Shown in pieces: positions 11,995 through 46,353 of a DNA stretch of 64,000 nucleotides (the first letter of the stretch is position 1; the number at the start of each line of letters is the position of its first letter). Location of the stretch: the NCBI GenBank assembly GCA_011033025.1, contig WFMF01000025.1, positions 483,018 through 547,017 on the forward strand, given 5' to 3'. A program made the translations under genes and the position numbers. The notes beneath the pieces are model-generated. The model had not been told where the DNA came from. It worked only from the letters and a program-made list of their open reading frames with translations, and searched no databases. The DNA comes from Beroe forskalii (taxonomy: Eukaryota > Ctenophora > Nuda > Beroida > Beroidae).

Positions 11995-12334
11995 CCAGGA
12001 GCTCTTCCATGAACGGTTTTTCGTATTCGTAAGTGTACAGTCACGTGACAACTATACATTTCACTTTTTACGTCACGAATAACTCCAGAGTTACGAAGTA
12101 ACTCTACGACCACTATGGAGTGGTCTTACGAATACTCGTAAGTCATTCAGTCAAACATCGCGCCTTCTCATTGGTGGAAATTTTCCAAGAGTATTCGTAA
12201 GACCACTTCATAGTGGTCGTAGAGTTATATCGTAACTTTTAAAAGAAAGAAAAGGGAATGTATAGTTGTCAGTATAGTTGTCACGTGACTGTACACTTAC
12301 GAATACGAAAAACCGTTCATGGAAGAGCTCCAGG
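11995..12334. mobile_element. 340-bp foldback MITE
   Basis: The arms match in inverted orientation from GGAGCTCTTCCATGAACGG at the left to CCGTTCATGGAAGAGCTCC at the right. They continue through CGTATTCGTAAGTGTACAGT and a CACGTG on both sides. Internal blocks (TCTACGACCACTATG) also pair. No coding potential. Target-site duplication not resolved. Confidence 0.75.
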
Positions 12335-12920: not shown

Positions 12921-13193
12921 TCAAACAAATTCCGGTTCACGTTCAATGCTGACAAACTTCAGAGCTTCCGTGGGTCCGTATCTGTAATCAAAGAACAGCT
13001 CCTCGCCAGGCTCGATGTTCCTCTTGGCAAATATCCCGATCCTGTGATCTCCGTTGACCATCATAACGCGCGCGAAGCAGTTCGGACTGACGGAGTGGTT
13101 TGCGAAGCGTATCTTGTTTCCCTTCCGCGTAGCGTCCACCACGTAGTCCTGCGTTAGGTTGAAGAGGAAACTACACTTGTATTTGTCGTATAC
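12921..13193 (-). CDS. EZH: EZH last coding exon: SET core and post-SET
   Basis: Acceptor TTCTCAG|G. Encodes [13 protein letters not shown], then [47 protein letters not shown] and IEREPEFV-stop. The catalytic NHS and FFDYRY motifs are intact. The sequence is closer in style to invertebrate E(z) (RYGPTE.LKFV.IERE) than to vertebrate EZH2. Confidence 0.95.
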
Positions 13194-16100
13194 CTGAGAA
13201 GCGGGAATGCGGGATTAGGTTCACAGTAGTTAGCGGGAATGCGGGATTAGGTTCACATAATTTAGTGAGAATGCAGATTAGGTTCACAGAATGTGGGCCC
13301 GTGGGGGTTAGCAATAGTTAGCTAAAGATGCACGATGGTATGCACGATGAGCGAAGGTTATAGAAAATACTAAAATAGAATTTCCCCGCACGCATATTGT
13401 ATCCTTCCCTCATATTTTTGCCCACCCCCATCAATCTGCAGGGAGGACACGACTTTCCTCGATATGGACAGTGGACTAGAGAATGGAATGAAGGGGCAAG
13501 GTATAACCTTCATTTCTCCTTCTGTCCACCTCCTCCTGCGATATAACCTACCTTGCCCCTTCTGTCCGCCTCCTCCTGCGATATAACCTACCTTGCCCCT
13601 TCTGTCCCCCCTGCGATATAACCTACCTTGCCCCTTCTGTCCGCCTCCTCCTGCGATATAACCTACCTTGCCCCTTCTGTCCACCTCCTCCTGCGATATA
13701 ACCTACCTTGCCCCTTCTGTCCGCCTCCTCCTGCGATATAACCTACCTTGCCTTCTGTCCGCCTCCTCCCAAGCGATATAACCTACCTTGCCCCTTCTGT
13801 CCACCTCCTCCTGCGATATAACCAACCTTGCCCCTTCTGTCCACCTCCTCCTGCGATATAACCTACCTTGCCCCTTCTGTCCACCTCCTCCTGCGATATA
13901 ACCTACCTTGCCCCTTCTGTCCGCCTCCTCCTGCGATATAACCAACCTTGCCCCTTCTGTCCACCTCCTCCTGCGATATAACCTACCTTGCCCCTTCTGT
14001 CCTCCTCCTGCGATATAACCTACCTTGCCCCTTCTGTCCACCTCCTCCTGCGATATAACCTACCTTGCCCCTTCTGTCCGCCTCCTCCTGCGATATAACC
14101 TACCTTGCCCCTTCTGTCTGCCTCCCCCTGTGATATAACCTACCTTGCCCCTTCTGTCCACCTATTGCGATATAACCTACCTTGCCCCTTCTGTCCGCCA
14201 CCTCCTGCGATATAACCTACTTTGCCCCTTCTGTCCGCCACCTCCTGCGATATAACCTACCTTGCCCCTTCTGTCCTCCTCCTGCGATATAACCTACCTT
14301 GCCCCTTCTGTCTGCTTCCTCCTGCGATATAACCTACCTTGCCCCTTCTGTCTGCTTCCTCCTGCGATATAACCTACCTTGCCCCTTCTGTCCACCTCCT
14401 CCTGCGATATAACGTACCTTGCCCCTTCTGTCCGCCACCTCCTGCGATATAACCTACTTTGCCCCTTCTGTCCGCCACCTCCTGCGATATAACCTACCTT
14501 GCCCCTTCTGTCATCCTCCTGCAATATAACCTACCTTGCCCCTTCTGTCCGCCACCTCCTGCGATATAACCTACCTTGCCCCTTCTGTCCGCTTCCTCCT
14601 GTGATATAACCTACCTTGCCCCTTCTGTCCCCTCCTCCTGCGATATAACCTACCTTGCCCCTTCTGTCCGCCTCCTCCTGCGATATAACCTACCTTGCCC
14701 CTTCTGTCCGCCTCCTCCTGCGATATAACCTACCTTGCCCCTTCTGTCCACCTCCTCCTGCGATATAACCTACCTTGCCCCTTCTGTCCGTCTCCTCTTG
14801 CGATATAACCTACCTTGCCCCTTCTGTCCGCCTCCTCCTGCGATATAACCTACCTTGCCCCTTCTGTCCGCCTCCTCCTGCGATATAACCTACCTTGCCC
14901 TTCTGTCCGCCTCCTCCTGCGATATAACCTACCTTGCCCCTTCTGTCCGCCTCCTCCTGCGATATAACCTACCTTGCCCCTTCTGTCCGCCTCCTCCTGC
15001 GATATAACCTACCTTGCCCCTTCTGTCCCCCTCCTGCGATATAACCTACCTTGCCCCTTCTGTCCGCCTCCTCCTGCGATATAACCTACCTTGCTCCTTC
15101 TGTCCGCCTCCTCCTGCGATATAACCTACCTTGCCCCTTCTGTCCGCCTAGTCCTGCAATATAACCTACCTTGCCCCTTCTGTCCGCCTCCTTCTGCGAT
15201 ATAACCTACCTTGCCCCTTCTGTCCGCCTCCTCCTGCGATATAACCTACCTTGCCCCTTCTGTCCGCCTCCTCCTGCGATATAACCTACCTTGCCCCTTC
15301 TGTCCGCCTCCTCCTGCGATATAACCTACCTTGCCCCTTCTGTCCGCCTCTTCTGTGATATAACCTACCTTGCCCCTTCTGTCCGCCTCCTCCTGCGATA
15401 TAACCTACCTTGCCCCTTCTGTCCGCCTCCTCCTGCGATATAACCTACCTTGCCCCTTCTGCGATTCTGTCCGCCTCCTCCTGTGATATAACCTACCTTG
15501 CCCCTTCTGTCCGCCTCCTCCTGCGATATAACCTACCTTGCCCCTTCTGTCCGCCTCCTCCTGCGATATAACCTACCTTGCCCCTTCTGTCCGCCTCCTC
15601 CTGCGATATAACCTACCTTGCCCCTTCTGTCCGCCTCCTCCTGCGATATAACCCTTCTGTCCGCCTCCTCCTGCGATATAACCTACCTTGCCTTCTGTCC
15701 GCCTCTGCGATATAACCTACCTTGCCCCTTCTGTCCGCCTCCTCCTGCGATATAACCTACCTTGCCCCTTCTGTCCGCCTCCTGCGATATAACCTACCTT
15801 GCCCCTTCTGTCCGCCTCCTCCTGCGATATAACCTCCTGCGATATAACCTACCTTGCCCCTTCTGTCCGCCTCCTCCTGCGATATAACCTACCTTGCCCC
15901 TTCTGTCCACCTTGCCCCTCCTGCCCCATGATATAACCTACCTTGCCCCTTCTGTCCGCCTCCTCCTGCGATATAACCTACCTTGCCCCTTCTGTCCGCC
16001 TCCTCCTGCGATATAACCTACCTTGCCCCTTCTGTCCGCCTCCTGCGATATAACCTACCTTGCCCCTTCTGTCCGCCTCCTCCTGCGATATAACCTACCT

Positions 16101-19100
16101 TGCCCCTTCTGTCCGCCCCCTCCTGTGATATAACCTACCTTTCCCCTTCTGTCCGCTTCCTACTGCGATATAACCTACCTTGCCCCTTCTGTCCGCTTCC
16201 TACTGCGATATAACCTACCTTGCCCCTTCTGTCCACCTCCTCCTATGATATAACCTACCTTGCCCCTTCTGTCCGCCTCCTCCTGCGATATAACCTACCT
16301 TGCCCCTTCTGTCCGCCTCCTCCTGCGATATAACCTACCTTGCCCCTTCTGTCCGCCTCCTGCGATATAACCTACCTTGCCCTTCTGTCCGCCTCCTCCT
16401 GCGATATAACCTACCTTGCCCCTTCTGTCCGCCTCCTCCTGCGATATAACCTACCTTGCCCCTTCTGTCCGCCTCCTCCTGCGATATAACCTACCTTGCC
16501 CCTTCTGTCCGCCTCCTCCTGCGATATAACCTACCTTGCCCCTTCTGTCCGCCTCCTCCTGCGATATAACCTACCTTGCCCCTTCTGTCCGCCTCCTCCT
16601 GCGATATAACCTACCTTGCCCCTTCTGTCCGCTTCCTCTTGCGAGATGACCTACCTTGCCCCTTCTGTCCGCCCCTCCTCCGATATAACCTACCTTGCCC
16701 TTCTGTCCGCCTCCTCCTGCGATATAACCTACCTTGCCCCTTCTGTCCGCCTCCTCCTGCGATATAACCTACCTTGCCCCTTCTGTCCGCTCCTCCTGCG
16801 ATATAACCTACCTTGCCCCTTCTGTCCGCCTCCTCCTGCGATATAACCTACCTTGCCCCTTCTGTCCCCCTCCTGTGATATAACATACCTTGCCCCTTCT
16901 GTCCCCCTCCTGTGATATAACCTACCTTGCCCCTTCTGTCCGCCTCCTCCTGCGATATAACCTACCTTGCCCCTTCTGTCCGCCTCCTCCTGCGATATAA
17001 CCTACCTTGCCCCTTCTGTCCGCCTCCTCCTCCTGCCTTCTGATATAACCTGCGACCTTGCCCTTCTGTCCCTCCTCCCTGCGATATAACCTACCTTGCC
17101 CTTCTGTCCGCCTCCTCCTGCGATATAACCTACTTGCCCCTTCTGTCCGCCTCCTCCTGATATAACCTACCTTGCCCCTTCTGTCCGCCTCCTCCTGCGA
17201 TATAACCTACCTTGCCTTCTGTCCGCCTCCTCCTGCGATATAACCTACCTTGCCCCTTCTGTCCGCCTCCTCCTGCGATATAACCTACCTTGCCCCTTCT
17301 GTCCGCCTCTTCCTGCGATATAACCTACCTTGCCCCTTCTGTCTGCCTCCTCCTGCGATATAACCTACCTTGCCCCTTCTGTCCGCCTCTTCCTGCGATA
17401 TAACCTACCTTGCCCCTTCTGTCCCCCCCCCCTCCCGATATAACCTACCTTGCCCCTTCTGTCCGCTTCCTCCTGCGATATATACCTTGCCCCTTCTGTC
17501 CGGAAGTCTTCCTGCGCAGGAACCTTCACGAATATCCCCTGTCCCCCTTCCTCCACATAACCTACCTCGGGAGCCAGGAGAAGGTGCTTCCCCACCCGCC
17601 GGCGCTGGATACACAATACCCCCACGTTCCTACACGAGGTCGCTTTGTCATTCAACGTGTCACCTGCGTGGGAAGAGAAGAAATGCAGTAATACTGGAGT
17701 GATTGATTGTACAACCGAAAAGAGAATAAATCAATCTCTTTTCCCATGACCTATGTAACTCTTATTCAACAACCTGATTCGTGAAATCAATACTTGATCA
17801 TATTGTGTGGTAAACTGAAGCTCCACGTTACAAGTAGTCTGAGGAAAGGCAAATACCTGCCCCACAGCTGGAACATAGGTCCGGGTCACATTCTCTAACT
17901 GCCACGAAGCAGGGACACATCTGAGTCCGACATGACGACTTGCACTTGCAACCTGCCGCGAAATGTAGGTATAGTAACTTACTCGAATTAAGTTGCAAGG
18001 ATTGATAATGTCAGGCTACAGATCGCGACTTCTTGCGTCATAATGTATAGATTGAAACTAGGAACACCTATATGACAGTGCTATCTCACCAGTGAATCTG
18101 TTGGAGCAGTCCTTGCTACAATTACAGAACTTCTCACAAAAGTGTCCGCCACTGACGCAGGAACAACATGGGTCACAGGGCCGACCTGGGTGGTCACACG
18201 GCACGAAACTACCCACCTGACGACGGATAAGAAATCAATCTTCCTTCTGTTTGTTTGGCTTTGAATTCAAAGAATCCAATATAAATCTAACACAGCAAAA
18301 AGTTGAAGTTTGCAACAAATGAAAGTTTGTTTGAACAAGCTATGCCAAGACTTACCAAGTTCCCAGGATTTTCTTGTGCTTTCTTGAGGACTTTTTGAAG
18401 GTTCTTCTGGAATCTTTTCTTGTGGGATGTGATTGATGAGACCTGTAACGCAAATCACACGGCTTACCGAGTTTAAATAATATTGGTTTCATGTAGAGGA
18501 AAAAGTAAAATAATAAACCGAAAAGAAGCACGTTTTCAGATTCTAGAAAAGTGCAGAGACTCCCCTGATACACCCCGGTCTCATTGAATTTCCTCCTGTA
18601 CCTACCTTGTTCTTCTTTCTCTTTTGTTTCTTCCTCGAGGTTTGTGGGGAGGTGTCGTCCGGCTGGACGTGAGATCCACAGAACTTGGAATACTCAAACA
18701 CCTGGACACCAGAGATGTATGGTGGTGAAGGGAAGGAAAAAGAACAGTTGGAGAAGGTGTGGCTTCAAATCGTTTAGAATTGAATAATTCTCCTAATAAT
18801 AAAATAGGTGGAATGGTAAACTTGACGCTATCATACTCATACTTTGGTGCGATCTATCGAAAAGGAGAGGTTGCTATGAAATTAGAAGCTGTGATTACAC
18901 TACCTCTACGCAGGTTTTGGTTCGGAGCATCCTCGCCAAACTACAAGAGTTCTGTTGGAACACCGGAAAGAGGGCGTTAAAGAGGCTCTCCTCATTGCAG
19001 GTCCAACTAGCACACACCTCAGCTTGACGTTGCAGGTACTGAGAATCCTGCAGAACGACGAATATTAATATTCACGCAGTGAAAAACATTTCCTTGTGTT

Positions 19101-21105
19101 TAAATAGCAATGTGTCGGACAAGTGAGAGAGAACTGGAACAATCAATGACATGTTATAATATTATCTACCCTCCATCCCAGATTACCTGGGACGTATCGC
19201 TCTTATCATCACCGTCACTCTCTGACGACAGGGCGGGGGATGACGTCATGGATATGGAAGGGGAGGAGGAGACCGAGGTGTCCTCGACCTGTACAAAGTG
19301 TGCTTAAAAAGGAGAAGGTGGCAGCATGCTTTTAAAACTTCATTTGATGACTCAGAATGTAGAGCAGTCGATTCTTTTGCAAGATTAGGAAGAAGCATGA
19401 CAGCCAGAAATGCAACTTTTGAGGTTTTTTAGTACTGAAAGGAGGGGTTTAGGGTCCTGCTGATGAGTAACCGACAAACAACCACTATCAGAGCTTGTAA
19501 CGTACCCTGAGAAGGCGTTTCTTAGCCTCCTCGCAGGGCGGCTCCCCGGGGTGCTCGGGCCGTCTGACGGGGGTGGGGGGTCGGGAGTACTTGTGGAGGT
19601 AGCAGTCTGAGGAACAGGGGGAGGTGGGGAGGGGCTCCCGCCGCTTCTTGGGCACCCGGGGCCGGGAGTTCCAGGAGTGGAGGAAGCAGTCGTACTTATA
19701 ACACCCCCGGCAGAAGAGGGAAGTGTAGGAGTGCAGTACCTGGTCGCGAGACACCTGCAGAGAGGGATGAGTGACAGTGAGAAATACAGAGAGTGTTTAG
19801 AAAGTGGAATATAAAAAGGGAAGAGGGGAGTAGGTGAGGGTGACAAGTGCAAAATGCGAGAGGAGGATGCGATTCGTGAATGAAAGTAGGAGAGAGGAGA
19901 GGGGGGAGATTCCAAGAGCTAACAATACCACCTTGTGAGGGAGCTTCTCGTCGATATTAGAGCAGCTGACAGTGTTAACTTGTGTCCCTGTTATCTGGAT
20001 ATACTTATCGTACAAATCCTCTATCCGACCTGTGCAGTGTCCTTTACAGGCAGTGTTTCTAGAGTAATAAATCATCCCAATTCAGACTGAAAAGAACTTG
20101 TCGAAATATCCCTAAGATGACGGAGTTTTATTTTGTTTTGAAGTTTATTCTGATACTCTGCTTCCCATCAAATGTTAAGTACGTCAGTATTCAATTATCC
20201 TACAGCGTGAGATGTGTAAATAGTTAACAGCGAGCAAGTACTGGATAAAAGAGGTTTTTCCGGAGATTAAAATCATTCCGAGTTTCAAGTAAATTACAAG
20301 AAGACTTAGCAGTAACCTATTTGTGGATAGAGAGGAGATATGACGTGGATAGCATCCACAAGTGACAGATCCTCGTACTTCTGAACCTTCGACACCAGCT
20401 CTTCCAGTACCTTTTATTTTGGATAGTTTGTCATTTTCAATAACCATTTCAATGCTGATTAAGCTAAATTAAATTTCATAACATTTGATAACCATTTAAC
20501 AAATCTGGTCGGTTTTAAGATCGGTGTTAAATCACATATCACTCAGTCAATGACTCGCCTCATCAAAGCAAGTATCCGTGAAGCCGCATCTGTCGTGTAT
20601 CTTGCCATCGTAATTCAGAATCAACTCCTCAATAAACGAGGTATCCTGCTGTAGAACCTGATGGGATGTCGTCATGGTAACCTGGTAACCTGGTTCTCAT
20701 ACTACTACATTTCTGTAGAGCGTATGAATTGACATGATTACATGAACTCTGCACCATTTGCTAGTTTGTCAATGATGGAGATATCCCACAAAAAACGCTG
20801 CCATAACAGCTGATAGACTCAGCTATTAGAGGAAACACTAGTGAAGCCCACCTCTTCTCCCATGTAAGGAATGTTGTGTAGCACTGTCTCGTCCTCCACA
20901 AACACATTCTGAGTAACGGGTACCCAGGTGTAGTACCTAGGCGAGAACACGTAAATCGCTCCCAAAACCCTTATCAAAGAATACGGTTTATTTACGGACA
21001 GTGTCTTTTGGACACCACATTTTCAAATTCTGAATTAGTGGCTTATATCCTCCCATAATCTAATGATGTGACCCACTGACAGCATGCAGCAGCTGCCAGC
21101 TACGT
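12921..21105 (-). CDS. EZH: Enhancer of zeste-type histone H3K27 methyltransferase (5' exons missing)
   Basis: EZH proteins are the catalytic subunit of Polycomb repressive complex 2 and methylate H3 lysine 27 in the nucleus. Reconstructed exons on the minus strand are 21073-21105, 20852-20936, 20559-20657, 20317-20410, 19932-20029, 19506-19754, 19187-19288, 18904-19047, 18606-18701, 18356-18442, 18090-18216, 17857-17952, 17449-17663 and 12921-13193. All reading phases agree and join into 598 codons plus stop. Order: the EED/SUZ12-contacting N-terminal half ([13 protein letters not shown]), the CXC-preceding Cys cluster ([14 protein letters not shown]), an acidic Ser linker, a SANT-like region, the pre-SET CXC domain, and SET. 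This corresponds to roughly residues 100-746 of the human protein; the start codon and first ~100 residues were not located. Introns are 80-300 bp except the last, which is swollen to 4.3 kb by a minisatellite. The SET exon looks damaged (see its own entry). Confidence 0.9.
13200..13290. repeat. Three copies of a ~32-bp intronic repeat
   Basis: A unit of type GCGGGAATGCGGGATTAGGT is repeated three times just inside the last EZH intron, with decay in the third. It is unrelated to the 40-bp array. Confidence 0.7.
13519..17448 (-). repeat. 40-bp minisatellite derived from the EZH exon/intron junction
   Basis: About 95-100 units fill the last EZH intron. On the gene strand one unit is ATATCGCAGGAGGAGGCGGA + CAGAAGGGGCAAG + GTAGGTT. 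The first 33 nt encode [11 protein letters not shown], exactly the end of the preceding exon, and the last 7 nt are that exon's splice donor and intron start. Most units differ by only a few bases; some lack 2-12 bases, and a few have 3-bp variants (CCTCCTCC shortened). Because 40 is not divisible by 3 and the unit has no stop on this strand, all frames stay open over long stretches. Repeat-like pieces extend beyond the donor into the exon to about 17560. Confidence 0.95.
17449..17663 (-). CDS. EZH: EZH exon: start of SET domain, altered by repeat sequence
   Basis: Acceptor CCACGCAG|G. Recognisable conserved pieces are [27 protein letters not shown] and [11 protein letters not shown]. Between them, the residues expected from all EZH proteins are replaced. 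SDVAGW before GIF is replaced by [10 protein letters not shown], and ISEYCGEI before ISQ by RTEGARY. Both replacements are encoded by DNA that matches the downstream 40-bp repeat (GTAGGTTAT...GGACAG and CGGACAGAAGGGGCAAGGTA). The frame stays open over all 71 codons. GWG and EYCGE help form the S-adenosylmethionine and lysine pockets, so this version would probably be inactive. An assembly or consensus error in reads from the repeat is a serious alternative. Confidence 0.75.
17857..17952 (-). CDS. EZH: EZH exon: CXC domain, second half
   Basis: Encodes [20 protein letters not shown] and [12 protein letters not shown], matching the human CRCKAQCNTKQCPC and [13 protein letters not shown]. All Zn-ligand cysteines of this half are retained. 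Donor G|GTATTT. Confidence 0.93.
18090..18216 (-). CDS. EZH: EZH exon: CXC domain, first half
   Basis: Encodes [20 protein letters not shown] then [20 protein letters not shown], the Zn-binding pre-SET Cys array (human YQPCDHPRQPCDSSCPC and FCEKFCQCSSECQNRFPG). Donor G|GTGAGA. Confidence 0.93.
18356..18442 (-). CDS. EZH: EZH exon: Lys-rich linker before CXC
   Basis: Twenty-nine codons ([20 protein letters not shown], then KAQENPGNL) in phase with both neighbours. Sequence conservation is weak, and the call rests on splice sites (GTTACAG|G; TTG|GTAAGT) and phase. Confidence 0.75.
18606..18701 (-). CDS. EZH: EZH exon: VFEYSKF and basic stretch
   Basis: Encodes [16 protein letters not shown] and then [16 protein letters not shown], matching VYEFRVKESS and TPPRKKKRKH of EZH2. 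The basic run is a plausible nuclear localisation signal. Acceptor GTCCAG|G, donor AAG|GTAGGT. Confidence 0.88.
18904..19047 (-). CDS. EZH: EZH exon: SANT-like region
   Basis: Encodes [20 protein letters not shown] followed by [14 protein letters not shown], aligning with the human WSGAEASMFRVLIG and FCAIARLIGTKTCRQ. Acceptor TTCTGCAG|G, donor GAG|GTAGTG; 48 whole codons. Confidence 0.9.
19187..19288 (-). CDS. EZH: EZH exon: Ser/acidic linker
   Basis: Encodes 34 residues ([20 protein letters not shown], then [14 protein letters not shown]). This is the low-complexity linker that in EZH2 precedes the second SANT domain. Acceptor TTTGTACAG|G, donor CAG|GTAATC. Confidence 0.8.
19506..19754 (-). 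CDS. EZH: EZH exon: [20 protein letters not shown] Cys cluster
   Basis: Encodes [18 protein letters not shown] and [10 protein letters not shown], the highly conserved Cys-containing motif of EZH proteins (human [21 protein letters not shown]). A Pro/Arg-rich stretch follows, with a second C..C ([10 protein letters not shown]). Acceptor CTCTGCAG|G, donor AGG|GTACGT; 83 whole codons. Confidence 0.92.
19932..20029 (-). CDS. EZH: EZH exon: [12 protein letters not shown] ... NIDEKLPHK
   Basis: Corresponds to EZH2 ELKEKYKELTEQQ and PNIDGPNAK. Acceptor TGCACAG|GT, donor AAG|GTGGTA. Confidence 0.85.
20317..20410 (-). CDS. EZH: EZH exon: [12 protein letters not shown] block
   Basis: Encodes [20 protein letters not shown] and [12 protein letters not shown], matching the VELVNALGQY and FEAISSMFPDKG parts of EZH2. 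The long acidic linker between them in vertebrates is absent. The acceptor (ATAAAAG|G) lacks a good pyrimidine tract, so the exact 5' edge is uncertain; an in-frame TAA just upstream limits it. Confidence 0.75.
20559..20657 (-). CDS. EZH: EZH exon: TFIEELIKNYDGK block, GC donor
   Basis: Encodes [20 protein letters not shown] and [13 protein letters not shown], 33 whole codons. The frame reaches a TGA shortly after the conserved part, and the only in-phase donor that joins to the next block is GAG|GCGAGT, so a GC-AG intron is inferred. Confidence 0.85.
20852..20936 (-). CDS. EZH: EZH exon: [14 protein letters not shown] block
   Basis: Encodes [16 protein letters not shown] followed by [12 protein letters not shown], nearly identical to the human EZH2 block before DEVLDQDGTF. 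Donor GAG|GTGGGC; acceptor CCTAG|G. Confidence 0.9.
21073..21105 (-). CDS. EZH: EZH exon, short, before the YYTWVPV exon (tentative)
   Basis: A 33-nt candidate exon with a pyrimidine-rich acceptor (CCTTTTCAG) and a GTCACA donor. It encodes [10 protein letters not shown] and then splices in phase to give GYYTWVPV, matching the LNAVASVPIMYSW stretch of vertebrate EZH2. The short length and weak donor make it the least certain exon. Confidence 0.5.
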
Positions 21106-21297
21106 CTGAAAAGGAAGGAAGGGGCATGAAGGATGGGGAGGGAAGGAGTTTTGTATTTGGCCACCGATCAAGACCCAGTGCACGCAGTGGAAAATCTATG
21201 GATTTTGAAATTTCACAAAACGATTATATCGACGATAAAAAGATTATCACGCGATAATCCTTTTGAAAACGATAATCGTGACGAAAAATGATTATCG

Positions 21298-22017
21298 TAC
21301 CTTATTAACAACGGCACCTTATTAACAACGGCACCTTATTAACAACGGTGCCTTGTTAACAACGGCAGCTTATTAACAACGGCACCTTACCAACAACGGT
21401 ACCTTATCAGCAACGGTACCTTATTAACAACGTAACCTTATTAACAACGGTACCTTATTAACAACGATACCTTATTAACAACGGTACCTTATTTACAACG
21501 GTACCTTATTAACAACGATACCTTATTAACAACGGTACCTTATTAACAACGGTACCTTATTAACAACGGTACCTTATTTACAACGGTACCTTATTAACAA
21601 CGATACCTTATTAACAACGGTACCTTATTAACAACGGTACCTTATTAACAACGGTACCTTATTAACAACGGTACCTTATTAACAACGGTACCTTATAAAC
21701 AACGGTACCTTTTTAACAACGGTACCTTATTAACAACAATACCTTATTAACAACGGTACCCTATTAACAACGGTACCTTATTTACAACGGTACCTTATTA
21801 ACAACGATACCTTATTAACAACGGTACCTTATTAACAACGGTACCTTATTAACAACGGTACCTTATTAACAACGGTACCTTATTAGCAACGGTACCTTAT
21901 TAACAACGGTACCTCATTAACAACGGTACCTTATTAACAACGGTACCTTATTAACAACGGTACCTTATTAACAACGGTACCTTATTAACAACGTTACCTT
22001 ATTAACAACGGTACCTT
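21298..22017. repeat. 17-bp satellite, about 42 units
   Basis: Unit TACCTTATTAACAACGG (plus strand), each with a GGTACC core across the unit junction. The first units have GGCACC variants, the rest are very uniform. It lies just beyond the most upstream EZH exon found and abuts the 3' end of a LINE. Confidence 0.92.
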
Positions 22018-22065: not shown

Positions 22066-23721
22066 CTAGACCATCTGTTGTAGACCACCTGTGCTCCAGT
22101 CCAGTAGCGAGTTTGAGTTGGGAGAGGTATACCCGGGTACTGGTGGTTGATCTGGATACGTGCTCATGATATGGGATGTTAGTCTCGATTTGAAAGACTC
22201 TATGGACGGAGCACAGGTGACGCTGCAGGGGAGAATGTTCCAAAGCTTTGGGCCAGTCACTGCGAATGATTTATCAAACAGTGACTTGGCGTAGGATGGG
22301 GCTTTCTTGGGTAGAGGTGGAACAGAGCATCGAGTTCCTAGACGGATGTGTTCGTAGGACTTCAGTTGGAGGTCATTGGGAGCGATACCTTTGAGAATCT
22401 TCCAAACCTGGATGATGATGTATCTTTCTCGGCGTCTCTGGATTGACATGAGATCTAACTTTTTTAGGCGTTCCCAATAACTGAGACCTTTGCAGCCGGA
22501 TATTTGACGAGTGAAGGCTCTTTGTGGTGATTCTAGCCTTTGGATATCACTCGTTAGTGTGGGGTTCCATACTGGACAAGAGTATTCCAGTCTGCTTCGG
22601 ACAATGGACTTGAAGAGGGTGAGCATGGTATTTCGGGATCTGTCTGAGAAGACACTAAGCACCCAGTTTGCCATTTTGTTGGCACTTTCGACAGCAGTCT
22701 TGACCTGAGTCGACCATTTCAAGTCAGGGGTGAGCATTATGCCAAGGTCTTTAACACTTGGTGCCGGGAGTATTTCTTGACCAGACGTAGTGATGTACTT
22801 GGTCCACTGGGATGTGAATGGGAGCTGCTGGAGAAGGTGGCTTCTAGGTGTTCTGTAGGTGAGGAGCTCGAACTTGTTTTCATGAAGTAGCATGTTATTT
22901 GCTACGGACCAATCGATGACTTTCAGGAGATCTTGTTGGAGAATAGTCTGGTCTTCGCAGCAGCTTACAGATTTACTGAGACGAGTATCGTCAGCAAAGC
23001 TTCCGGAAGTTGAACCATCCAGACAGTTTTCAAGGTCATCGATATAGATGAGGAAGAGAATAGGGCCGAGTACAGAGCCTTGTGGGACACCACTAAGAAC
23101 GAGTGAAGATATGGAATGTACTCCATTTACAGAGACGACTTGTTGTCGGTTGTTCAAGAATTGTTGGATCCAAGCAAGGAGCTTCCCCTCTACACCAAAC
23201 TTCTGGAGCTTGTGGAGGAGGATCTCATGGTCAACTTTATCGAATGCCTTGGCGAAGTCAAGATAGACCACATCATGTTCGTTGCCGTCAAGTATGCTCT
23301 GGATTACTGAGTCGATGTGTTTGAGAAGGTGTGTGAGACAGCTTCGTCCTTTTCTGAATCCATGTTGATTCCTGGAGAGCAGGTTGTTAGATTCCAGGTG
23401 GTTTACCAGTTGTTTCCTGATGACTCTTTCGAAGATTTTTATTAATTGGGATGTTAATGATATAGGACTGTAGTTTGCAGCATCTGACCTATCACCTTTC
23501 TTGAATATTGGTGTGATGATCTGCGTTTTCAGGTTACTCGGGATGCTACCATCTCTAAATGATTTTTCCCATATGAGGGAGATGGGGTAACACAGGTTAG
23601 TCTTGCATTCCTTAAGGACTACAGCTGGAATGTCTTTGTCAGTGGTGGCCGAGTTGGAGTCAATTTCATCGATGGCGTCAATGATGTCTTGAGTGGAGAA
23701 CGAAAAGTCACTGAACAACAA
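22066..23721 (-). mobile_element. 5'-truncated non-LTR retrotransposon (LINE) with reverse transcriptase
   Basis: One intact minus-strand frame of about 551 residues. Reverse-transcriptase landmarks: PIFKKGDRSDAANYSPISLT at about residues 71-90, HGFRKGRS near 120, VVYLDFAKAFDKVDHEILLH at 151-170, GVPQGSVLGP at 211-220 and the catalytic FADD at 242-245. A C-terminal domain with SRLEYSCPVWNP and RRRERY follows, typical of CR1/Jockey-group LINEs. The apurinic endonuclease that should precede RT is missing, so this is a 5'-truncated copy; the frame itself has no stops, suggesting a young insertion. Both flanks are AACAAT/TTAACAAC-rich, so it may have landed in, or beside, the 17-bp satellite. Confidence 0.9.
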
Positions 23722-43990: not shown

Positions 43991-44389
43991 GGAGATACCT
44001 ACTGTTGTTGAGCTCACATGCAGACACATATTGTGGTCGAATGCTGTTGGGATACATTCAAGATAATGTGGTTCCTGCAATAGTGGTGGCTAGTTGGGCA
44101 TATAGAAAGGTAGTAATTATATTCATTGATCCCTTACTGGTTTTGCTGCACTAGTGATGATGTAACTTGTATGACATATCATAGAGAGGCTCTTGACACA
44201 TCAAAATACTCACAAGTTACAAAACCAATAGAACGCGTTAGGATGCGTTCCACTACTGGTGAGTTCAGTAGGAATTTGCTAGCATAGTGCAATGCTAGCG
44301 ACTCGTCAGCTCAGACCTAACCGTCAGGGATAAAGCAGTTAAGGACAGTCTCCAGGGCAACCGACTAGGAGGAAAATGCATCATTATTT

Positions 44390-46353
44390 GGTTCTAGTAC
44401 ACTCTCTGGAAATCAGTCACGTGGGAAAAAAGCAGTTTTCAGCCTTATTTGTGGTCCTTGTGGCCCCTTATAGACGAAAAAGTCCATTTTAGCCCAAAAA
44501 TGGGGGTTTTCGAGAGGCTGTAAATCGTGAAAATGGTCGAAATTCAAAATTCTGAAAGCAGCATTTTCTTAGTTGGATCAAACTGTACTGACCTGCAAAA
44601 TTTCATGAGTTAACTAGTAAGTTTATTAGGACGACCCCCCCGGCCAGACACTGATCAAAATTCAGAAAATTCTCGGACATACTTGGACTTGGGGATAATT
44701 ATGGTAAAAAAATGCACCAGTATTTGGTTCTAGTGCACTCTCTGGAAATCAGTCACATGGGAATAAGCAGTTTTCAGCCTTATTTTTGGTCCTTGTGGCC
44801 CATTATAGACGAAAAAGTCCATTTTTAGCCCAAAAATGGGGGTTTTCGAGAGGCTGTAAATCGTGAAAATGGTCGAAATTCAAAATTCTGAAAGCAGCAT
44901 TTTCTTAGTTGGATCAAACTGTACTGACCTGCAAAATTTCATGAGTTAACTAGTAAGTTTATTAGGAGGACCCCCCCTCCGGCCAGACACTGATCAAAAT
45001 TCAGAAAATTCTCGGACATACTTGGACTTGGGGATAATTATGGTTAAAAATGCATCAGTATTTGGTTCTAGTGCACTCTCTGGAAATCAGTCACATGGGA
45101 AAAAGCAGTTTTCAGCCTTATTTTTGGTCCTTGTGGCCCATTATAGACGAAAAAGTCCATTTTAGCCCAAAAATGGGGGTTTTCGAGAGGCTGTAAATCG
45201 TGAAAATGGTCGAAATTCAAAATTCTGAAAGCAGCATTTTCTTAGTTGGATCAAACTGTACTGACCTGCAAAATTTCATGAGTTAACTAGTAAGTTTATT
45301 AGGACGACCCCCCCCTCCGGCCAGACACTGATCAAAATTCAGAAAATTCTCGGACATACTTGGACTTGGGGATAATTATGGTTAAAAATGCATCAGTATT
45401 TGGTTCTAGTGCACTCTCTGGAAATCAGTCACATGGGAAAAAGCAGTTTTCAGCCTTATTTTTGGTCCTTGTGGCCCATTATAGACGAAAAAGTCCATTT
45501 TTAGCCCAAAAATGGGGGTTTTCGAGAGGCTGTCAATCGTGAAAATGGTCGAAATTTTAAATTCTGAAAGCAGCATTTTCTTAGTTGGATCAAACTGTAC
45601 TGACCTGCAAAATTTCATGAGTTAACTAGTAAGTTTATTAGGACGACCCCCCCCCCCTCCGGCCAGACACTGATCAAAATTCAGAAAATTCTCGGACATA
45701 CTTGGACTTGGGGATAATTATGGTTAAAAATGCATCAGTATTTGGTTCTAGTGCACTCTCTGGAAATCAGGCCCATTATAAACGAAAAAGTCCATTTTTA
45801 GCCCAAAAATTGGGGTTTTCGAGAGGCTCTCAATCGTGAAAATGGTCGAAATTCTAAATTCTTAAAGCAGCATTTTCTTAGTTGGATCAAACTGTACTGA
45901 CCTGAAAAATTTCATGAGTTAACTAGTAAGTTTATTAGGACGACCCCCCCCTCCGGCCAGACACTGATCAAAATTCAGAAAATTCTCGGACATACTTGGA
46001 CTTGGGGATAATTATGGTTAAAAGTGCATCAGTATTTGGTTCTAGTGCACTCTCTGGAAATCAGTCACACGGGAAAAAGCAGTTTTCAGCCTTATTTTTG
46101 GTCCTTGTGGCCCATTATAAACGAAAAAGTCCATTTTAGCCCAAAAATGGGGGTTTTCGAGAGGCTGTAAATCGTGAAAATGGTCGAAATTCAAAATTCT
46201 GAAAGCAGCATTTTCTTAGTTAGATCAAACTGTACTGACCTGCAAAATTTCATGAGTTAACTAGTAAGTTTATTAGGACGACCCCCCCCCCTCCGGCCAG
46301 ACACTGATCAAAATTCAGAAAATTCTCGGACATACTTGGACTTGGGGATAATT
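44390..46353. repeat. 337-bp satellite, left part of the array
   Basis: About six units, marked by CTCTCTGGAAATCAGTCAC at about 44403, 44739, 45076, 45413, 45756 and 46052. Each unit includes AAAAATGGGGGTTTTCGAGA and a C run of 7-10 before TCCGGCCAGACACTGATC. Length differences come mainly from the C run. One unit (about 45770) lacks some 40 bp. The array is cut at 46353 by a transposon and continues at 52605. Confidence 0.92.

Follow-up and report, generated by a model that had tools for sequence, protein, structure and literature searches.

How does a tandem repeat of some hundred units come to occupy the last intron of a Polycomb gene? The question is raised by a stretch of 64,000 nucleotides from the ctenophore Beroe forskalii (assembly GCA_011033025.1, contig WFMF01000025.1, positions 483,018 to 547,017), called here the window and numbered from its first letter. 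Its minus strand carries what is, to judge by its homologies, an E(z)/EZH methyltransferase gene: both CXC and SET homology to EZH2 is present in exons located by tblastn, the final exon matching an EZH2 chain in the PDB with an E value of 7.9e-46 and the penultimate exon of a second copy of the gene, described below, giving 5.3e-27. The repeat is, very probably, a minisatellite of the "mirage" type, the name given in amphioxus to minisatellite-like tandem duplications of intron/exon boundaries in the Adh3 and globin genes (PMC3087553).

The array and the coding origin of its unit

The 40-bp tandem array (AGGTTATATCGCAGGAGGAGGCGGACAGAAGGGGCAAGGT, about 101 units, minus strand) extends from 13,502 to 17,502, as delimited by Tandem Repeats Finder (period 40, 101.7 copies, 90% matches). 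On the exon side it reaches into the end of the penultimate E(z) exon, and the remainder occupies most of the last intron. About 100 tandem units of 40 bp in the last EZH intron had been claimed in a first-pass annotation, made from the letters of the window, and this is borne out in the assembly. Aligned unit by unit, the array gives 103 rows, the first three of which are unit-like sequence within the exon; the other 100, starting with the exon's own end, include 39 perfect units and 72 of exactly 40 nt, a size inside the published range of mirage units (10-160 bp). Identical variant units are clustered: on average they are 6.7 units apart, whereas shuffling gives 23.7, and none of 1000 shuffles came down to the observed value. 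Slippage or unequal exchange would be expected to produce this pattern; the array undergoes concerted evolution, or local homogenisation. The coding strand is rich in G (1752 G to 483 C, skew 0.57) and contains 66 two-tetrad G-quadruplex motifs, and these two properties could plausibly make the array unstable.

On the minus strand the unit consists of eleven codons, from ATA TCG CAG to GGC AAG, followed by GTAGGTT. The first-pass annotation had divided it into 33 nt of exon end and 7 intron bases, GTAGGTT; the letters are correct, but 38 nt of exon plus GT is the better division. Compared with the spliced coding sequence of the second gene copy, the 40-mer is identical at 38 of 40 positions, and the two mismatches, both at third bases (GTC/GTT for valine, ATC/ATA for isoleucine), are synonymous. 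All 40 bases of the unit form one uninterrupted coding stretch, AG-GTT-ATA-TCG...AAG-GT, with AGGT at either end and a final GT identical to the opening dinucleotide of the following exon. Given this repeated AGGT, most of GTAGGTT is exon sequence, and the donor AAG/GTAGGT arises at each duplication joint. The chance that a random 8-mer of intron composition encodes AG-V-I is 1.8e-4 (0.067 given AGGT), so that at most the GT of GTAGGTT need be intronic. The earlier proposal that the array grew from the exon/intron junction itself is thus retained as far as the exon end and its own donor are concerned, while almost no real intron sequence is needed in the unit.

We propose that the penultimate exon had its closing 40 nt of coding sequence, flanked on both sides by AGGT (..G/AGGTTATATCGCAG...GGGGCAAGGT/..), duplicated in tandem; each joint, AAG/GTAGGT, reads as a near-consensus 5' splice site. 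With the first joint spliced to the normal acceptor the mRNA would be the ordinary one, and the surplus copies would thus be intronic; the first donor is presumably the one used in vivo. On a G-rich coding strand, repeated slippage or unequal exchange may have brought the array to about 101 units here and to at least about 13 in the second copy, accompanied by local homogenisation of variants, and the same duplication process may have placed unit-like sequence in the window exon.

There are 90 exact AG/GTAGGT donors in the window array and 10 in the second copy, and in both only the first is predicted to keep the normal frame. The inner ones (89 of 90 and 9 of 10, respectively) are predicted to result in frameshifts or stops, since a unit of 40 bp breaks the frame. 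The suggestion that such an expansion can spread unnoticed by selection keeps one part, the first donor leaving the frame intact; invisibility to selection itself is unsupported, and the suggestion is weighed down by the 89 predicted frame-breaking donors and by the alteration of the window exon itself.

Several points weigh against a mirage-type origin. Donor sites are not singled out by their substitutions (8 at 900 sites, against 39 at 2700 other non-CpG sites), which give no signal of selection for or against the donors. Both donor use and array length are read from the assembly sequence only, the comparison with a single junction is confined to this one genome, and a fault in the consensus might account for the altered window exon.

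The second gene copy and the altered exon

Searches covered a genome of 216 Mb, and only the best candidates were scored, so that absence elsewhere is not proven. With two joined units as query, 55 matches were obtained, all on this contig and falling in the window, near 313 kb and near 451 kb. With the penultimate exon as query, full-length matches appeared at 313 kb (100%) as well as in the window (73%); the last exon was matched twice, by the window and by the 451-kb place (96%). The region at 299.7-313.7 kb, corresponding to the 5' half of the gene, aligns to the window gene in inverted orientation; that at 438.0-451.3 kb, corresponding to the 3' half and its flank, has direct orientation, part of its alignment falling on sequence that immediately precedes the window. 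Identity in non-array blocks is 78-97%. On the strength of these alignments we take the two halves to be a second E(z) copy lying in two separate pieces (the sister copy). In its 5' half the intact exon is directly followed by about 13 units, up to a gap of 100 N, with non-array sequence beyond; in its 3' half about 3 units precede the last exon. These figures are the visible part of the sister array, to be set against about 101 units in the window.

The 3' half lies about 138 kb from the 5' half and is flipped, so that the break at the array is an inversion or a misjoin. At its 451-kb end no run of 5 or more N was found, and the sequence passes without a gap, about 3 units into the array, into non-array sequence (L009:5437-5547). 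The split of the sister gene may be due either to the assembly or to a real inversion.

In the tblastn-matched parts of seven exons, counted without the penultimate one, comparison of the two copies yields 34 synonymous changes over about 197 sites and no non-synonymous change over about 736 sites, with dS about 0.20, indicating that both copies were under strong purifying selection until recently. An artefact of a single locus was rejected, as the unit is also found in the second copy, at two separate places. An unpurged diploid genome is not favoured: a single place was found for the PRP8 domain, and likewise for the SUZ12 VEFS box, so that the genome does not appear to be doubled throughout. 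The copies are possibly locally retained haplotypes, although a dS of about 0.20 would be extreme for alleles.

As support for a local expansion, the first-pass annotation had named a single junction in relatives against an array here. For the 40-bp array the comparison between the two copies does not give this result, as the sister also has an array; it does so for two further arrays that abut splice sites in E(z), each of which is single-copy in the other gene copy. An 11-bp polypyrimidine repeat (22.7 copies, L021:7766-8026) abuts the acceptor of the penultimate exon in the sister copy, where the window gene has a single polypyrimidine tract; it seems to have been seeded by the 3' splice site. 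In the window, a 32-bp repeat (2.9 copies, 13200..13291, minus strand) lies over the acceptor region of the last intron and is single-copy in the sister locus.

The exon upstream of the array had been called a SET exon. It is not a normal one: the exon (17449..17664, minus strand), which covers the N-terminal part of SET, contains array-like sequence and has lost conserved residues, GWG and SEYCGE, while its 72 codons are open and its splice sites kept. It is 216 nt long, the sister exon 198 nt. A stretch of 32 nt at 17,537-17,568 (minus strand), in the place where the sister has the codons SDVAGWG, resembles the array unit, its alignment score being reached by 0 of 2000 shuffles; the same place in the sister exon is unlike the unit, its score being equalled or exceeded in 1968 of 2000 shuffles. 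Further along the window exon, GACTTCC passes directly into unit sequence, and SEYCGE is gone. This exon still matches EZH2, with an E value of 2.6e-6 against 5.3e-27 for its sister counterpart. Pfam SET has no match in it, the SET core being incomplete without the two motifs; the sister exon reaches 21.6 bits, just below the curated cut-off of 22.4. At one position the window exon reads PAQ, like human PVQ, where the sister reads ACQ. The alteration is either recent exon erosion or an assembly fault, and since the matched parts of the other seven exons show no amino-acid change, any loss must be very recent.

That the real exon is intact, and was altered by an assembly or polishing fault due to the array, has in our estimate nearly an even chance. 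The 34 synonymous and 0 non-synonymous differences of the other exons point this way, as does the sister locus, which likewise breaks at the array, with its gap of 100 N; one amphioxus mirage, too, was misassembled in the draft genome (PMC3087553). A fault is harder to reconcile with four successive anchor blocks of the exon, shifted by +9, +12, +24 and +18 nt, all multiples of three, with no stop codon, and with the resemblance of PAQ to the human residues. Tentatively, with a probability that we place well short of even, the altered exon may instead be real; the window gene would then be either an E(z) paralogue devoid of catalytic activity or a recent pseudogene. Its open frame and kept splice sites combined with the loss of GWG and SEYCGE would agree with this, as would the missing Pfam match set beside a sister exon just under the cut-off. 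The matched parts of the other seven exons, without amino-acid change and with the catalytic last exon among them, speak against it.

Intron first or array first

Between the array and the likely acceptor, CTCAG/GTATAC, lie non-array bases, about 300 of them in the window and about 130 in the sister. A search of these bases for decayed units found none: 98 of 500 shuffles (window) and 63 of 500 (sister) score as high.

Two histories can be considered for a mirage-type array placed in this way. In that of the first-pass annotation, which we hold to be rather unlikely, the donor intron is the older and the unit combines the exon end with true intron bases, the duplication having occurred between the AGGT of the exon and an AGGT at intron positions +3 to +6 (donor region GTAGGTTATA). 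Both copies do have the intron, with an ordinary acceptor region, and from the donor consensus alone an AGGT at +3 to +6 is fairly probable. The TATA that follows AGGT, however, also encodes the V-I of the exon, a coincidence whose low chance, even given AGGT, was reported above, and at most GT need be intronic.

In the other history, which appears more doubtful still, the array would have created the intron. An AGGT-bounded segment of 40 nt would have been duplicated within a continuous exon, the joint becoming the donor and the acceptor being recruited later; this would be an intron gain of the Rogers type, with the generating array still visible. The unit needs no intron base, its last GT being the start of the next exon and AGGT standing at both ends, and a duplicated exonic AGGT segment is what is observed, at 38/40 to the coding sequence. 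Human EZH2, to our knowledge, lacks an intron at this position. Against such an origin, the likely acceptor is not array-derived, and the bases before it, about 300 and about 130, hold no decayed units. Published models describe a route of this kind (PMC4974935, PMC3087553). It is quite improbable that a duplicated AGGT segment made the intron and that the array then grew back into the exon, removing active-site residues of one E(z) copy; if true, one minisatellite would both make an intron and turn a Polycomb enzyme into a pseudoenzyme.

Gene surroundings, known systems and meaning

Eight E(z) exons were located in the window by tblastn, with the human EZH2 sequence as query; all are on the minus strand, and the edges of those upstream of the penultimate exon are approximate. 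The final exon (VYDKYKCS...IEREPEFV, 12924..13193) carries the rest of the SET domain, and its protein is identical in the sister copy. Beyond the penultimate exon follow CXC exon 2 (17864..17953), CXC exon 1 (18088..18219), an exon beginning WTCNEESLF... (18901..19005), which we take to be SANT-like, and the exons at 19593..19754, 20580..20660 (QVLQQDTSF...) and 20849..20941. Upstream of the exons found, on the minus strand, an open frame of 551 codons (22069-23721) with a reverse transcriptase domain (Pfam RVT_1) represents a LINE-like element. Just downstream of the last exon a fold-back element, spotted by eye, occupies 12000-12330, with about 60 bp of its start returning as reverse complement at its end.

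Other repeats are shared along the contig. Several places, some near E(z) exons and some not, have a 17-bp minisatellite (GTACCTTATTAACAACG), as in the window at 21297-22017, at L021:4049-4381 and at L009:9427-9901. A 338-bp satellite (4.1 copies, window 44373-45770) apparently forms further arrays near 290.6 kb, 323.7 kb and 536-537 kb, as seen by blastn between contig stretches.

Among known systems, the mirages of amphioxus are the closest. Their anatomy is shared by the present array: its unit comprises the end of the exon together with the GT donor, and in the sister copy the exon runs straight into the units. Regular splicing is reportedly undisturbed by mirages, which have been proposed as a source of introns (PMC3087553). 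Sizes differ: the two haplotypes of the globin gene BflGb6 carry 6 and 3 units of 150-160 bp, in the globin gene BflGb9 a segment of 157 bp is duplicated, and the units of Adh3 measure 10-72 bp (PMC3087553). The present case, by contrast, combines about 101 units of 40 bp, a Polycomb gene and array-like sequence inside a coding exon.

The unit of the human IFI6 (6-16, G1P3) minisatellite is 12 bp long and in frame, against the frame-breaking 40 bp found here. That minisatellite offers several donors, and two downstream units are used, giving three mRNA species (PMC4526556). In human segmental duplications, variable minisatellites of about 30 bp occur in recent paralogues, some at exon-intron boundaries, where they average about 4 units against about 101 here; 27 intron modifications are reported (PMC2812944). 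Tandem duplications of AGGT segments (the Rogers model, ATP2A1 and the 24-bp repeats of fission yeast, where the intron spans several duplicates) resemble the present case in that an exonic AGGT segment is duplicated (PMC4974935), but the likely acceptor here is not array-derived.

The first-pass annotation knew of no described example in a Polycomb gene. A literature search aimed at Polycomb genes found none either among the matches listed, judged by their titles; the kind itself is not undescribed, as mirages and IFI6 precede it. The kind is rare but already named, and the array is an extreme case of it; what is new is the size of the array, the gene, and the presence of the repeat inside a coding exon.

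About 90 identical donors within one intron amount to a natural experiment on the choice of 5' splice sites by the spliceosome, and the sister copy provides a built-in comparison for three splice-site-anchored arrays. The locus ties together the growth of a minisatellite, the origin of an intron and a possible coding loss in a chromatin gene.

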